From Desulfobacterales bacterium (GTDB lineage Bacteria; Desulfobacterota; Desulfobacteria; Desulfobacterales; JASJAZ01): a stretch of DNA of 64,000 bases. The notes under the pieces are model-generated. The model ran no database searches and had not been told where the DNA came from. It saw nothing but the letters and a program-made list of their open reading frames with translations. Positions 19,667 to 53,035 of this stretch are shown piece by piece. Every line of letters begins with the position of its first letter. Positions within the stretch are counted from its first letter, which is position 1. Location: contig JASJAZ010000072.1 of the NCBI GenBank assembly GCA_030066785.1, positions 1-64,000 on the forward strand, written 5' to 3'. Both the position numbers and the translations under genes were made by a program.

Positions 19667-20041
19667 ATGGATCTTTCTATAAAAGTGCTGGTTGTGGATG
19701 ATTTCGCTACTATGCGCAGAATTGTGAAAAATTTTTTGAAAGAGATAGGGTTCAAAAATATTATCGAAGCCGACGACGGTGCAGCCACCCTTGATGAACT
19801 TAAAAAACTAAAGTAGATCTTCATTGTTTCTGATTGGAACATGCCCAAAATGACTGGATTAGACCTCCTAAAGCAGGTTCGTGCGAGTGATGATTGGAAA
19901 GATATTCCCTTTTTAATGGTAGCTGTCGAATCTCAGAAACAAAACGTCATTGATGCTGTTCAGGCCGGCGTTTCAAATTATGTGGTTAAACCGTTTATGG
20001 CTGATCAGATTTCAGAAAAGTTGTAGAAGATATTTGAATAG
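19667..20041 (+). pseudogene. cheY: Chemotaxis response regulator CheY interrupted by two in-frame TAG codons
   Basis: One uninterrupted frame reads [67 protein letters not shown]...GVSNYVVKPFMADQISEKL*KIFE*; TAG at 19814-19816 and 20024-20026. Confidence 0.85.
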
Positions 20042-38773: not shown

Positions 38774-39526
38774 ATGGCCGCCAAAGCAAAGCAAAAGGCA
38801 GCAGAAGAACCGAAATCAGATCTGATTCAGATCATGACAGTATCGTTGTTTATTATCCTGCTGGCCTTTTTTATTTTGTTGAATGCGTTTGCTACCATTG
38901 ATGATATACGCCAGCGTGAAGTGTTGGGCTCCATCATGAAAAGTTTCGGCATTTTGTCAGGTGGAAGTTCGCTGATTGAAGGTCAAGGCGATACGATTGT
39001 GCCGCCGAAGTTGCAGCACTCCCCTGAAGATATCGATCTCTCTCATCTTTATAAATTGGACGATAATCTGCTAGTCAACATTGATATGTTTGCCAATAAT
39101 AATGGCAACGTGGTGCGGATTCCTGCCGATTTATTGTTTCAAGGCCATACTGCACGGCTGAAGACCGCGGCCGAACCTTTGCTAATTGAATTGGGGCGTA
39201 CGATTGCATCCAATCAGTATCCGGTGGAAATTAGTGGGCATTCGGATAATGCCTACCGAATTTCCGGAAAAAAGATTTCCAAACGAGAATTGACCAGCAT
39301 GCGCGCCTATCAGGTGCTGGGATATCTGGTTGATAGAACCGATATTGCACCCAAACGATTAACCGCTTTTGGTTGGGGTGCGCAGCAACCGATTGTATCG
39401 AATCAAACCCCGGAGACCCGGGCGTTAAACAATCGGATTGAAATTCTTTTTGTTAACCAGAAAACCGTTCGTAAACCTAAGGGGGTGTTTACCTTCAAAG
39501 ACTTTTTCTTCAAAGTCTTTGAATAA
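38774..39526 (+). CDS. MotB paralogue lacking the conserved proton-carrying Asp (OmpA-type peptidoglycan-binding C-term)
   Basis: TM segment TVSLFIILLAFFILL aligns to MotB with Ser in place of Asp; ISGHSDN...MRAYQVLGYL...NNRIEILFV OmpA domain. Confidence 0.88.
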   Translation: MAAKAKQKAAEEPKSDLIQIMTVSLFIILLAFFILLNAFATIDDIRQREVLGSIMKSFGILSGGSSLIEGQGDTIVPPKLQHSPEDIDLSHLYKLDDNLLVNIDMFANNNGNVVRIPADLLFQGHTARLKTAAEPLLIELGRTIASNQYPVEISGHSDNAYRISGKKISKRELTSMRAYQVLGYLVDRTDIAPKRLTAFGWGAQQPIVSNQTPETRALNNRIEILFVNQKTVRKPKGVFTFKDFFFKVFE

Positions 39527-39547
39527 AACACCGCAATAACGAGTCAA

Positions 39548-40291
39548 ATGGCTGGAAGCAAAAATAATAAAAGCGCTGAAGGTGTCAAGGCCGATCCAAA
39601 TGCATGGATGATTACTTTCGGCGACTTGCTCATGTTACTACTGACCTTTTTTGTTTTGCTTTTGACAATGAAGTCCATGGACGGCGGGCGTCTTAAAGAA
39701 GTCTTCAATCAGTTTTTAGAAACCCATGGTCCTTTAGAATACAACGATACTTCGGGAAAACCGAATGCTATTGAAATCGGTGATCATTATGCGAAACCGA
39801 TGCAAATTCAATCGAGTGCCATGCTGCGTGAACTCATCAGTATGTTGCATGACATCGAACAGATCACAGACAAGCAGGATGAAGTGAAGAATCTAAATGA
39901 TATTTTAGATATTACGGAAGATGATCGCGGTGTGATTGTCACCTTGGCCTGTGATGATTTGTTTGCGCGTGGCAGCGCCGATTTAAAGCCTGATCGAGTG
40001 GATATTCTCGACAAAGTTGGCGACCTATTGCGTTATGCAACTAATGAGATTTTAATCATGGGCCATACCGATGACATGCCGGTGAACCCTTCGGCCTTTG
40101 ACTCAAATTTGCAGTTGTCTTTTTATCGGGCACTAAGCGCATTCCAATACATGACCGATAACCTGGATTTCCGACCAGATCGTATGGCCGTGGGTGGTTA
40201 TGGCCAGTTGAGGCCACAATATCCTAACGATAGCGAAGCCAACCGAGCCAAAAATCGCAGGGTCGAATTTATATTACGCAAACTAACATAG
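39548..40291 (+). CDS. motB: Flagellar motor protein MotB with conserved Asp
   Basis: WMITFGDLLMLLLTFFVLLLTM with Asp; OmpA domain GHTDDMP...AVGGYGQLRPQYPNDSEANRAKNRRVEF. Confidence 0.94.
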   Translation: MAGSKNNKSAEGVKADPNAWMITFGDLLMLLLTFFVLLLTMKSMDGGRLKEVFNQFLETHGPLEYNDTSGKPNAIEIGDHYAKPMQIQSSAMLRELISMLHDIEQITDKQDEVKNLNDILDITEDDRGVIVTLACDDLFARGSADLKPDRVDILDKVGDLLRYATNEILIMGHTDDMPVNPSAFDSNLQLSFYRALSAFQYMTDNLDFRPDRMAVGGYGQLRPQYPNDSEANRAKNRRVEFILRKLT

Positions 40292-40305: not shown

Positions 40306-40830
40306 TTGGCCGAACAGAATCAAAACCAACCAGACGCAGGCGCTGGGAACGCTGAAGTCAAATCTTCGAAATCTTCCATGAAATTTATCATCATCGGCAT
40401 CGTGGTCGTGATTTTGGCCGCTGGTGGATATATCGGCTGGACTAAATTTATCAAACAGCCTGCCGAAGCCAAGGAAACAGTCGGAAAAACTGCATCAGTA
40501 CAACAATCGGAACAATCGGGGGATTCCATTGGGCAAGTTTTTGATCTGGAAACCTTTCTCGTTAATTTGGCTGATCGTGGCGGCAAACGCTATTTAAAGA
40601 CTAAAATTACGCTGGAATTATCTTCAGAGCTAGCTGTTGAGGAGGCCACAGCGCGAATGCCGCAACTGCGCGATGGCATCCTGTTGTTGTTGAGCAGCAA
40701 ATCAATGGAGGAAATTCAAGGGATTGAAGGCAAAATTGCCTTACGCAGCGAATTGGTAATGCGTGTCAATCAAATTCTCAAACAAGGTAAAGTGCGGAAT
40801 CTATACTTTACCGAATTCGTTATTCAATAG
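40306..40830 (+). CDS. fliL: Flagellar basal body-associated protein FliL
   Basis: TM segment then VFDLETFLVNLADRGGKRYLKTKITLELS...GKVRNLYFTEFVIQ; immediately before fliM; TTG start. Confidence 0.93.
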   Translation: MAEQNQNQPDAGAGNAEVKSSKSSMKFIIIGIVVVILAAGGYIGWTKFIKQPAEAKETVGKTASVQQSEQSGDSIGQVFDLETFLVNLADRGGKRYLKTKITLELSSELAVEEATARMPQLRDGILLLLSSKSMEEIQGIEGKIALRSELVMRVNQILKQGKVRNLYFTEFVIQ

Positions 40831-40839
40831 TCTATTCGA

Positions 40840-41817
40840 ATGAGTGAAATTCTAAGCCAAGAAGAAGTCGATAGCCTGCTCACAGGTCTAAGTTCAGGTA
40901 AAGTCGAAGCCGAAACAGATGCGCCCCCTGAACCTGAAGGCTTAAAGCCGTATGATTTTACTAGCCAGGACCGGGTGATTCGCGGCCGCATGCCGACCTT
41001 TAAGGTTATTAATGACCGGCTCGCCCGTCAAATGGGCAGCAGTCTATCAAAACTGTTGATGACCAACGTCGACATAAGCGCAAGTAACATGGAGACTTTG
41101 AAGTTTTCTGATTTCGTGCAATCTCTGCCGGTTCCGACCAGTTTGCATGTCTTTCGGATGTTGCCCTTCAGGGGCCATGCATTGTTGGTGATGGAGAGTC
41201 AGTTAGTCTTCAATTTGATCGACACTTTCTTTGGCGGTTCAGGCAATGGCAAAGCCAAGATCGAGGGTCGCGAATTCACACCGATTGAAGAAATGATGAT
41301 TCGCAAGGTAGTAACAGCATTGCTTGAAGATATGGTCAAAGCCTGGAGTCCAGTTGAAAAGGTAACCCCCCAATTTGTTCGCTCTGAAGTTAATCCGCAA
41401 TTTGCAACGATTGTGCTGCCGGCTGATTTGGTTATTACGGCGAAGTTTGACGTCGAGTTAGAGCAAAATGCGGGAAAGGTTACGATTTGTCTGCCATATG
41501 CCATGATTGAACCCATTCGCCATAAGCTTTCGTCGGGTTTTCAGAGTGAAGCCTTGGAAATTGATCACGAATGGCAGAAACGGGTTAAAGACCAGATATT
41601 AAACTCGATGGTGGATATTGCCGTTCAATTAGGTACCACTCAAATTACAGGGGAACGCCTGATTCATTTTAAGGTTGGTGATGTTATTCAATTGGATCAA
41701 AACGCATCGCGAAGCTTGATCGGGCTGGTGGAAGATGTACCTAAATTAAGAGGGTTTGCCGGAGTCCGGAACAAATACCAAGCATATAAAATAGAACAAA
41801 AATTGACATTGGAGTAA
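40840..41817 (+). CDS. fliM: Flagellar motor switch protein FliM
   Basis: N-terminal CheY-binding peptide SEILSQEEVDSLLTG, YDFTSQDRVIRGRMPTFKVINDRLARQ. Confidence 0.97.
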   Translation: MSEILSQEEVDSLLTGLSSGKVEAETDAPPEPEGLKPYDFTSQDRVIRGRMPTFKVINDRLARQMGSSLSKLLMTNVDISASNMETLKFSDFVQSLPVPTSLHVFRMLPFRGHALLVMESQLVFNLIDTFFGGSGNGKAKIEGREFTPIEEMMIRKVVTALLEDMVKAWSPVEKVTPQFVRSEVNPQFATIVLPADLVITAKFDVELEQNAGKVTICLPYAMIEPIRHKLSSGFQSEALEIDHEWQKRVKDQILNSMVDIAVQLGTTQITGERLIHFKVGDVIQLDQNASRSLIGLVEDVPKLRGFAGVRNKYQAYKIEQKLTLE

Positions 41818-49304: not shown

Positions 49305-50231
49305 GTGGATCAAGCAAGCAGTTTACGGAAAATGGTGGAAGCAACTGGCAAGCGTGACCGGTTGAATCGGCTGGAGACCGCAGTGGAAAACCCGGAGAAT
49401 GTTCCCCGCGTCATCGCTATTACCAGTGGCAAGGGAGGCGTCGGAAAAACCAACATTGTTGGCAATATGGCCATGGCGCTCTCCGCAATCGGCAAAAAGG
49501 TTTTGGTACTGGATGCAGATTTGGGTTTGGCCAATATCGATATTATTTTTGGCATTCATCCCCAATACAATATTGGCCATGTACTAAACGGAGAAAAAGA
49601 ACTGTCTGATATCATCGTTGATGGTCCTCCGGGTATCCGGATTATCCCCGCGGGTTCAGGATTTGTTAATTTGACTCATTTGACTGAGGGGCAAAAACTG
49701 AGCCTACTTAGCGAATTTGAAGCCCTTAACGAAATATCGGATATTTTTCTGATTGACACCGGTGCTGGAATTTCTTCCAATGTTTTGTATTTTAACTTGG
49801 CCGCGGATGAGTGCATTATCGTGGCCACGTCTGAGCCGACATCGATTACCGATGCTTACGCAATGATTAAGGTCATGTCTTCCCAGCACAACGCGAAGCA
49901 TTTTAAATTGCTGGCCAACATGGTCAAAAGTGAAAGTGAAGCAAAATCGGTTTACAAAAACCTATGTCAAGCCGCCGATCGTTTTTTATCCGGTGTGGCA
50001 ATCGAATACCTTGGTTATATCCCGCGGGATGAAAAAATATGCGATGCCGTTAAACAGCGTCGCACGGTGATGGATTTTTGTCCGGCGTCGGCTTCCAGTT
50101 GTCAATTTAAGAAACTGGCCCAGCGACTTTGGGAGTCACCCAAGCGTTCTGATAATGTCGGCAACATTAAATTTTTCCTGCATCGTTATATTAGTGCCAA
50201 AACAAACACAGCCGACCAACATGCACTATAA
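49305..50231 (+). CDS. flhG: MinD/ParA-family ATPase FlhG (FleN)
   Basis: N-terminal DQASSLRKMVE FlhF-activating-type motif, ITSGKGGVGKTNIVGNMAMAL; GTG start. Confidence 0.94.
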   Translation: MDQASSLRKMVEATGKRDRLNRLETAVENPENVPRVIAITSGKGGVGKTNIVGNMAMALSAIGKKVLVLDADLGLANIDIIFGIHPQYNIGHVLNGEKELSDIIVDGPPGIRIIPAGSGFVNLTHLTEGQKLSLLSEFEALNEISDIFLIDTGAGISSNVLYFNLAADECIIVATSEPTSITDAYAMIKVMSSQHNAKHFKLLANMVKSESEAKSVYKNLCQAADRFLSGVAIEYLGYIPRDEKICDAVKQRRTVMDFCPASASSCQFKKLAQRLWESPKRSDNVGNIKFFLHRYISAKTNTADQHAL

Positions 50232-50342: not shown

Positions 50343-51110
50343 ATGCCACGTAACCAACAAAATCAAGCTGCCAAGGCCATATCCGGGGCATTCAGCCCGG
50401 AAGAGCGCGAACTGCTTATCGTTAAATATGCTTATTTGGTTAAGCATTATGCGGGCCGCATGGCGATGCGATTACCCTCCAGCGTTTTGTTTGATGAACT
50501 GGTCAGCGCCGGCAGCGTGGGATTAATTGATGCCATTGACAAATTTGATCCCAGCAAGGATGTCGATTTAAAAACCTATGCCTCCTATCGCATCAAAGGG
50601 GCCATACTGGACGAGTTACGCAGTATGGACTGGTATTCGCGGCCGATGCGCAAGAAAATGCAAGACATCGAAAAAGCGATGACCGCGGTTGAGGCCCGCG
50701 AGGGGCGTCCCGCTAAAGATTGGGAGATCGCTGAAGAGCTGGGAATGGAATTGGAGGCCTACTTTAAGATTCTTTCAAATATTCACAATATCGCGCTTTT
50801 CAGTTTTGATGAATACATCAAAGATGATGCTAACGACATTCTGGCCAAAAAATCATTTCAAGATAAAATTATGAGCGATGATGACCCGGACAAGCATCTT
50901 GCCAAAGAAGAGATGAAACAAGTGGTTGCTCGCGCCATCCGAAGTCTATCGCAAAAGGAACAGACAGTAATTTCTCTTTACTACTATAATGAATTGACTT
51001 TGAAAGAAATCGGGGAGGTGCTCAGTTTAACCGAGTCAAGAATTTGTCAAATCCATACCATGACACTCATTAAACTCAGATCACGACTAAGGCAATACTT
51101 CCAAAACTAA
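50343..51110 (+). CDS. fliA: Flagellar sigma factor FliA (sigma28)
   Basis: LVSAGSVGLIDAIDKFDPSKDVDLKTYASYRIKGAILDELRSMDWYSRPMR, region 4 LKEIGEVLSLTESRICQIHTMTLIKLRSRL. Confidence 0.96.
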   Translation: MPRNQQNQAAKAISGAFSPEERELLIVKYAYLVKHYAGRMAMRLPSSVLFDELVSAGSVGLIDAIDKFDPSKDVDLKTYASYRIKGAILDELRSMDWYSRPMRKKMQDIEKAMTAVEAREGRPAKDWEIAEELGMELEAYFKILSNIHNIALFSFDEYIKDDANDILAKKSFQDKIMSDDDPDKHLAKEEMKQVVARAIRSLSQKEQTVISLYYYNELTLKEIGEVLSLTESRICQIHTMTLIKLRSRLRQYFQN

Positions 51111-51166: not shown

Positions 51167-52171
51167 GTGCCGGCAAAACTCATGAAGGAATCCAATGCGA
51201 ATACAATCGATGAGGCGCTCATATCTCAAAATGATATCGATCAACTTTTAAAAGATGTCGTAGAGCCTGATGAGCCTGCGGGGTCTAGTGATATCGTTGA
51301 AAACACACAAGATGCGGAGACACAGGCGGCGCCGTTAGATCCAAACAAGGGCCCCAATAGTGCTAAGCCACAACAAAAAGGAGATTTGGATTCATCGTTA
51401 GGGCAGGCACAAGGGCCCCAAGCCACTGACACCCATCATGCTAGTGCCGAAAAGGCAAATAAAGCTACCGGTACTAAAGAAATTGAATCAAGCCTCGTAT
51501 CACAAGATGATCTTGATGCGCTATTAAGCGATACCTCTGAACAAGCGCAAGCTAAGGATGACGAAGCCCCGGATCGCATCATACTGGAAGAACCGGACGA
51601 AGAAGAACCGGCTCAGAAAGAAGAACCAGATCCGGCACCAAACGTAAAATCACCAACCAAGCCGATGGTCAAAGGGCGCAAAAAACGCTCGACCATTATA
51701 TTAGTCATTGCGGGCATATCAATGTTTGTGGTCGGTGGGTGGGTGATTCTTAAATTGTTAAACCGGACGCATGAACCGGAAACTCAACCAGTGCAACGTT
51801 TTCAGATCGTCACTCCGAAAGCGGCCAAATCATTGGCCTCGCGGGTAATGCCTAAGCCGCTGACAGATGACAATTTGGTCCAGTTGGAAGAATTTGTTGT
51901 ATTCGCGCCTCCTGAAAAGCCAGGCATCACATTTCTTCGATTGAAAGTATCGCTGACAATGAATGACCCGATGCTGGCCAGGAAAATCAAAGCCAATCGG
52001 GTTTTTTACAGAAGTATTATTTTTAATCGCCTCAATGATGTAGTGGCAACTAAACATGTAAGGGAGATTGAGCCACGTAGAATTGAAAAGTTGCTTGTTG
52101 AAGCGTTGCGCCCGTCTCTGCCGGGCAGAGCTCTTAAAAAAATAATGTTCACTAAATTCATTGTTACCTAA
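51167..52171 (+). CDS. FliL-like protein with long N-terminal tail carrying two FliM-type CheY-binding motifs
   Basis: Tail motifs LISQNDIDQLLKD and LVSQDDLDALLSD; acidic linker; TM IILVIAGISMFVVGGWVILKLL; C-term LVQLEEFVVFAPP...ALKKIMFTKFIVT resembles FliL. GTG start. Confidence 0.78.
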   Translation: MPAKLMKESNANTIDEALISQNDIDQLLKDVVEPDEPAGSSDIVENTQDAETQAAPLDPNKGPNSAKPQQKGDLDSSLGQAQGPQATDTHHASAEKANKATGTKEIESSLVSQDDLDALLSDTSEQAQAKDDEAPDRIILEEPDEEEPAQKEEPDPAPNVKSPTKPMVKGRKKRSTIILVIAGISMFVVGGWVILKLLNRTHEPETQPVQRFQIVTPKAAKSLASRVMPKPLTDDNLVQLEEFVVFAPPEKPGITFLRLKVSLTMNDPMLARKIKANRVFYRSIIFNRLNDVVATKHVREIEPRRIEKLLVEALRPSLPGRALKKIMFTKFIVT

Positions 52172-52172
52172 A

Positions 52173-52472
52173 ATGGCGTCTATATCAGACTTAAATATCG
52201 TTATTCAACAAGGCGGCAAGGTCCAAGAAGTGCAGAATCCCCGGCAGGGCCAACTGGATCCGAATCATGTGATTGCTCACCATCAGATTAAAAAAGTAGA
52301 CAAGAAGAAGAAAACGGTTAAACAGTCACAAGACGCAGATCAAGTTCAACCAGATGCCGAGAACCCCCAAAAGTCTAAACACCGTAAACAATCTTCTTCT
52401 CGCGCAAAAATGGCAAAAGGCAAAAACGCCCTAGCCAAGAGGCGCGGGCGATTAATTGATACCGTCGTCTAA
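52173..52472 (+). CDS. Small basic hypothetical protein
   Basis: ATG overlapping region of upstream stop; Lys/Gln-rich 99 aa; in same-strand flagellar block. Confidence 0.55.
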   Translation: MASISDLNIVIQQGGKVQEVQNPRQGQLDPNHVIAHHQIKKVDKKKKTVKQSQDADQVQPDAENPQKSKHRKQSSSRAKMAKGKNALAKRRGRLIDTVV

Positions 52473-52549: not shown

Positions 52550-53035
52550 ATGGAAATTTTTTCGCTTAAATTTTGGATTTTTTTTCAAATGCTGGTCGAC
52601 GTATTTTTGGTAGTTATGGTGATTTATTTTTTAAGAAATATGCGAGCCGGCTGGCATCGCGAGGCGACAACGGCAGCATCAGAACGGATTATTACAATGC
52701 TGGAACCTCTATTAAATGAGGCCGATCGTACGACTCGGACCTTTACCAATCAATTGAATGAAAAGAAAAGCCTTATCCGTGATTTAAATGAAAAACTAGA
52801 TAGCCGCATCATTAGCTTGAATTTACTTTTAAATCGATCCGAAGCGTGGCTACAAGACCCATCACCTAAGATGGCGGTGGCGGCTAAAACCAATGTATGT
52901 GATCAACAGGAATCCATTATCCAGATGCATGCAAAGGGATTGAATGCCGCCACCATTGCTCGCAAGCTTTCCATGTCACAGGGTGAGGTGGATCTTGTGA
53001 TAAATCTGAAACAGAAATTTCAATCCATGCAATAG
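52550..53035 (+). CDS. Membrane-anchored DUF6115/SwrB-like protein
   Basis: N-terminal TM, coiled-coil, C-term ESIIQMHAKGLNAATIARKLSMSQGEVDLVINL HTH-like motif as in SwrB-type proteins. Confidence 0.68.
   Translation: MEIFSLKFWIFFQMLVDVFLVVMVIYFLRNMRAGWHREATTAASERIITMLEPLLNEADRTTRTFTNQLNEKKSLIRDLNEKLDSRIISLNLLLNRSEAWLQDPSPKMAVAAKTNVCDQQESIIQMHAKGLNAATIARKLSMSQGEVDLVINLKQKFQSMQ

Follow-up and report, generated by a model that had tools for sequence, protein, structure and literature searches.

Tandem FliM-type motifs on a FliL paralogue of the Desulfobacterales: a candidate multivalent docking site for CheY

Introduction

The N-terminal peptide of FliM is commonly viewed as one tether on each FliM subunit, and the peptide at the C-terminus of E. 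coli CheZ that binds CheY is similar in sequence. The EIDALL element of FliM and FliY was reported to bind CheY-P (PMC9126983). Furthermore, in monotrichous species the FliM N-terminus is bound by FlhG (PMC12826062), and in Bacillus/Geobacillus the first 36 residues of FliY suffice for FlhG binding (PMC12327844); the EIDALL element lies within the part of FliM or FliY that FlhG binds. FliL, for its part, is known in other bacteria to form rings around the stators (PMC11870540).

The window analysed here, a stretch of 64,000 nucleotides from contig JASJAZ010000072.1 of a Desulfobacterales bacterium, holds a gene, referred to below as gene X, in which a FliL-like domain is joined to FliM-type motifs. 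A published description of a FliL with arrays of such motifs was not found in the open-licence literature. The joining of a FliL paralogue to a multivalent set of FliM-type motifs is a real and conserved architecture and is apparently undescribed.

Results and discussion

Gene X and its place in the flagellar cluster

Gene X starts with GTG, an in-frame ATG being located at 51182 (Table 1). The initial annotation had reported its ORF and coordinates, two motifs, an acidic linker, one transmembrane helix and a C-terminus reading KKIMFTKFIVT, all of which were recovered, as was the likeness of the motifs to the FliM N-terminal peptide, the FliM of this genome beginning with MSEILSQEEVDSLLTG at 40840. 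Both gene X motifs fit SQ-x-D-(I/L)-D-x-L-L. When SQ-x-[DE]-h-D-x-L-h was scanned as DNA, only four matches were obtained in the 4.6 Mb genome, namely FliM, the two in gene X and one chance match in an opposite-strand ORF, and 1000 shuffles of the gene X tail gave a mean of 0.0 motifs against the 2 seen. A transmembrane helix and a basic patch are present as in FliL, but the tail before the membrane, where FliL has a short cytoplasmic N-terminus, is about 178 residues long and reaches up to about 770 residues in relatives. The KGRKKR that precedes the helix fits a cytoplasmic N-terminus of the predicted product.

Table 1. Positions of gene X, its parts and the other genes of the window discussed in the text.
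Feature	Position	Strand	Basis
cheY pseudogene, two internal TAG codons, conserved Thr lost	19667..20038	+	orthologue comparison
canonical fliL, separate gene without motif	40306..40830	+	Pfam FliL, 98.7 bits
fliM, N-terminus MSEILSQEEVDSLLTG	40840..41817	+	Pfam, sequence scan
flhG, intact, candidate alternative ligand	49305..50231	+	ORF list, residue comparison
fliA, immediate upstream neighbour of X at nearly every syntenic locus	50343..51110	+	ORF list, synteny
gene X, FliL paralogue with FliM-type motifs, 334 aa	51167..52171	+	ORF list; syntenic orthologues
motif 1, LISQNDIDQLLKD	51218..51256	+	sequence, genome scan, orthologues
motif 2, LVSQDDLDALLSD	51494..51532	+	sequence, genome scan, orthologues
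acidic, proline-rich linker; conserved (V/I)ILE; basic patch before membrane	51533..51682	+	sequence; low-confidence in model
transmembrane helix, model residues 63-89 of fragment starting 51497	51683..51763	+	sequence, AlphaFold2
periplasmic FliL domain, strand-strand-helix-helix-helix-strand	51869..52168	+	PDB profile matches, AlphaFold2, fold matches
small lysine-rich ORF, conserved neighbour of X	52161..52472	+	synteny
DUF6115 protein, conserved neighbour of X	52550..53035	+	synteny, Pfam

In a Pfam scan the gene X product matched neither FliL (PF03748) nor the FliM middle and SPOA domains, and the NCBIfam FliL model PRK08455 gave an E-value of 2.7e-5 and 23.9 bits, below its cut-off of 187. 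A profile built from gene X homologues (A1) matched the FliL chains 9hmf_O (7.8e-7) and 7sgn_A (2.6e-6) of the PDB and recovered canonical FliL across the phylum with E-values down to 1e-16. An AlphaFold2 model of residues 111-334 comprised one transmembrane helix and a FliL domain whose pLDDT exceeded 90 at most positions, the linker and tail being of low confidence and without secondary structure, and the top 11 PDB fold matches of the predicted structure were all FliL, with target TM-scores up to 0.77. The FliL-like periplasmic domain first read from the sequence is supported by these profile, PDB and fold matches. Since it falls below the Pfam and NCBIfam FliL cut-offs, gene X is, as judged from sequence and predicted structure, a FliL paralogue or superfamily member and not FliL itself.

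The gene order flhA-flhF-flhG-fliA-X-(small ORF)-DUF6115 gene was kept in nearly all of the 20-kb regions that cover it, the DUF6115 gene following X in nearly every syntenic locus, and in a few regions (L100, for example) single neighbours of X were undetected. The small ORF had no Pfam match. Canonical fliL sits apart from X, before fliM, in the regions compared, and together with the kept gene order this separate copy identifies X as a syntenic FliL paralogue. A search with the X protein found homologues in 13 of the 58 same-order genomes, at least one of them (L015) being canonical FliL, and A1 matched 89 of the 195 genomes of the order with canonical FliL counted too. Two tandem motB-like genes lie between motA and fliL in the window (38774-40291), a layout also seen in most relatives.

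Motif arrays in X and on other proteins

It was stated in the initial annotation that its reading would be refuted if the motifs were not conserved in orthologues. Strict motifs were in fact borne by 34 of the 56 syntenic X proteins, the window's included, at 1 to 16 per protein, and with a looser pattern the count rose to as many as 17 (L086, L103). All 210 strict motifs lie before the transmembrane helix and none after it, with a median spacing of 36 residues. An origin of the arrays by chance in acidic tails was ruled out by shuffling, which gave at most 0.008 expected motifs per protein. The consensus of 209 units reads [I/V/L]-S-Q-[D/E]-D-I-D-x-L-L (Q in 100%, L in 97% and S in 89%). Among close relatives identity in the motif core amounted to 80-100%, whereas the linkers reached 42-77% and the FliL domain 45-86%. 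Conservation of the core thus exceeds that of the linkers and, in general, that of the FliL domain, and the motif is under selection.

None of 39 canonical FliL proteins had a motif. In the genomes concerned FliM has (S/T)Q(D/E/N)EVDSLL or a near variant, and because this is of the EEV/DEV type and not DDI, we reject an origin of the arrays by simple copying of the local FliM peptide. In a tree of FlhA, FlhF, FlhG and FliA from 48 genomes the array-bearing genomes formed one group with the array-less outside it; within the order the array is restricted to a single clade, the tree being midpoint-rooted and the choice between gain and loss at its base depending on the root.

A three-motif stretch, aligned in four rows, was also scanned against contigs from one genome per species, which gave at least 40 loci. 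Most loci among the matches listed were X genes of Desulfobacteraceae and relatives, including those of the cultured Desulfospira joergensenii DSM 10085 and Desulfobacter vibrioformis DSM 8776, with seven motifs each. Three loci (L229:3425-4288; L237:3485-4273, from Terasakiella brassicae; L243:3227-4219) coded for CheZ, above the Pfam cut-off in each case, with C-terminal tandem SQDDIDxLF arrays, and the one in L243 is closely preceded by a cheY gene. Such CheZ arrays were likewise not found described in the open-licence literature. In a Phycisphaerae MAG (L241:1056-2168) an N-terminal array of this kind was carried by FliN (SPOA), and in a Nitrospirae MAG (L232) an array occurred on a membrane protein with a weak FliL match. 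With tandem arrays in relatives and the same arrays on CheZ, the case for the architecture is stronger than was at first put forward. One planctomycete and two unclassified MAGs (L234, L239, L240) have N-terminal QDDIDALL arrays on a coiled-coil protein with a conserved but unassigned C-terminal part, and genes with 10 or more motifs adjoin receiver-domain genes in two Verrucomicrobia MAGs (L235, L238).

Candidate ligands of the motifs

Across the family, we read the motifs of X as a putative CheY-docking device, to which we assign a probability of about 0.5. This reading draws support from the logo of the X motif, which corresponds to the EIDALL element of FliM with its reported binding of CheY-P, and from arrays of the same kind on CheZ, the phosphatase of CheY-P. 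X would be an inner-membrane protein that sits with the stator and basal body as FliL does, and its disordered acidic tail would display one to about 17 FliM-N-type motifs per chain in the cytoplasm, each of which could bind one CheY-type receiver. Were X to form FliL-like rings, a dense membrane-anchored docking zone would arise beside the C-ring, and it might concentrate, buffer or compete for CheY-P. Ring formation, stator contact, CheY binding with its effect, and any effect on motility are thus predictions that we infer for X.

Motif number correlated with CheA number (Spearman 0.50 in all genomes and 0.66 in the array-bearing ones), and independent contrasts agreed (array-bearing genomes, r 0.49, p 0.008; all 48 genomes, r 0.36, p 0.013), the correlation over the full set being not significant once genome size was controlled (partial r 0.20, p 0.17). 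FlhG was undetected in four array-bearing genomes (L243, L234, L239, L240), for which completeness is unspecified. A CheY ligand is favoured since copy number rises with CheA and since genomes in which FlhG was not found carry arrays. Besides the weaker correlation over all genomes, other observations argue against it: the motif of the arrays is not that of FliM in the same genome; CheA is mostly still present in the clades whose X lacks a motif; and motifs are kept in two genomes, the window's with two and G572 with three or four, that lack CheA, CheW, MCP and CheB.

The state of chemotaxis in the window's organism bears directly on the last of these. Its genome, 92.9% complete, gave no matches in family searches to CheA (PF02895), CheW (PF01584), MCP (PF00015) or CheB (PF01339), and the only canonical cheY, the one in the window, is a pseudogene in which 6 of 52 family-invariant positions are changed, the conserved Thr included; functional orthologues have 0-2 such changes and a divergent second copy (L197) has 9. 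The same four families are absent from the array-bearing G572 (97% complete) and the array-less G478 (95%), and at such completeness it would be unsurprising for one or two of 34 array-bearing genomes to miss one chemotaxis cluster by chance. Because four families are missing and cheY has also decayed, true loss of chemotaxis is likely in the window's organism. It was proposed in the initial annotation that X could recruit or titrate CheY-P at the stator or membrane, as a chemotaxis input to the stators and not to the switch. With no CheA, CheW, MCP or CheB and a cheY pseudogene, such an input is unlikely in this organism, and the proposal stays plausible for chemotactic relatives. The two remaining motifs would here be recent leftovers, or might serve FlhG or another receiver. 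The flagellar cluster of this genome (window contig C218) is nonetheless full, and the genome codes for 102 receiver domains, many of them stand-alone.

That the window's two motifs are functionless remnants of a former CheY-binding array would agree with the cheY pseudogene, the absent chemotaxis genes and a copy number that is low next to the nine motifs of the sister lineage G040, but the constrained positions of both motifs are all intact, and we regard this as distinctly improbable. At the decay rate of cheY (6 of 52 positions and two stops) intact motifs would be expected without selection about once in six, so their intactness is not decisive against such remnants, and as a test of decay after chemotaxis loss it was not significant alone. 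Retention of the motifs without chemotaxis genes, in a genome so rich in stand-alone receivers, might instead reflect a structural role in the motor or the binding of a receiver other than CheY, the tail being a docking strip for non-chemotactic regulators. No candidate partner was found, and such a role does not account for the CheZ arrays on its own; we consider it improbable.

FlhG is the main rival to CheY as the ligand. X might retain this MinD-like ATPase of flagellar number on the membrane close to newly forming basal bodies, or titrate it away from FliM/FliN, so that assembly at the level of the stators would be coupled to flagellar number or gene expression. FlhG is a documented ligand of FliM and FliY N-termini that the initial annotation had not considered, its gene precedes X by two genes wherever a syntenic locus covers it, and it is intact in the window's organism despite the loss of chemotaxis; furthermore, the motifs of both X and FliM are kept in chemotaxis-less genomes. 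The residues K177 and F215, through which Geobacillus FlhG binds FliY, were kept in nearly all FlhGs examined, but so they were where X has no motif, and the third such residue, R207, was not kept, being N in the window's FlhG. FlhG contact residues failed as a marker separating array-bearing from array-less genomes. CheZ proteins also carry arrays, as do genomes in which FlhG was not detected, and copy number follows that of CheA. On balance, docking of FlhG seems unlikely.

If CheY is the ligand, X, with as many as about 17 motif copies in one chain, would provide many additional binding sites next to the switch, and the modelling of CheY-P concentration, cooperativity or stator behaviour in the bacteria that carry it would have to change. 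Judging by the CheZ arrays, the principle may extend beyond the FliL paralogue. We tentatively propose that tandem FliM-N arrays may be a general means of docking CheY-P multivalently that has so far gone unrecognised. Desulfobacterota would have it on a FliL-type motor protein, some other bacteria on CheZ and some Phycisphaerae on FliN; in the FliL paralogue it would act as a membrane-anchored CheY-P reservoir near the motor, with a copy number scaling with the number of chemosensory pathways. The two cultured carriers make the reading testable.

Comparison with known systems

Like FliL (PF03748), the X protein is predicted to have one transmembrane helix, a cytoplasmic N-terminus and a periplasmic FliL/SPFH-like fold, but X is a second copy elsewhere in the cluster and has a long acidic tail with FliM-type motifs. 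With respect to FlhG and its binding to FliM and FliY, what is alike is that a MinD-like ATPase from the same operon binds those N-termini; we know of no interaction between FlhG and any FliL protein. With the CheY-binding peptide of FliM X shares I/L-S-Q-x-(D/E)-h-D-x-L-L, whereas in X it is repeated up to about 17 times, on a membrane protein that has no FliM middle or SPOA domain, and reads DDI where the local FliM has EEV or DEV. The array-bearing CheZ proteins resemble X in having the motif in tandem on a flexible tail, which in CheZ is attached to a soluble phosphatase core and in X to a transmembrane helix and a FliL domain.
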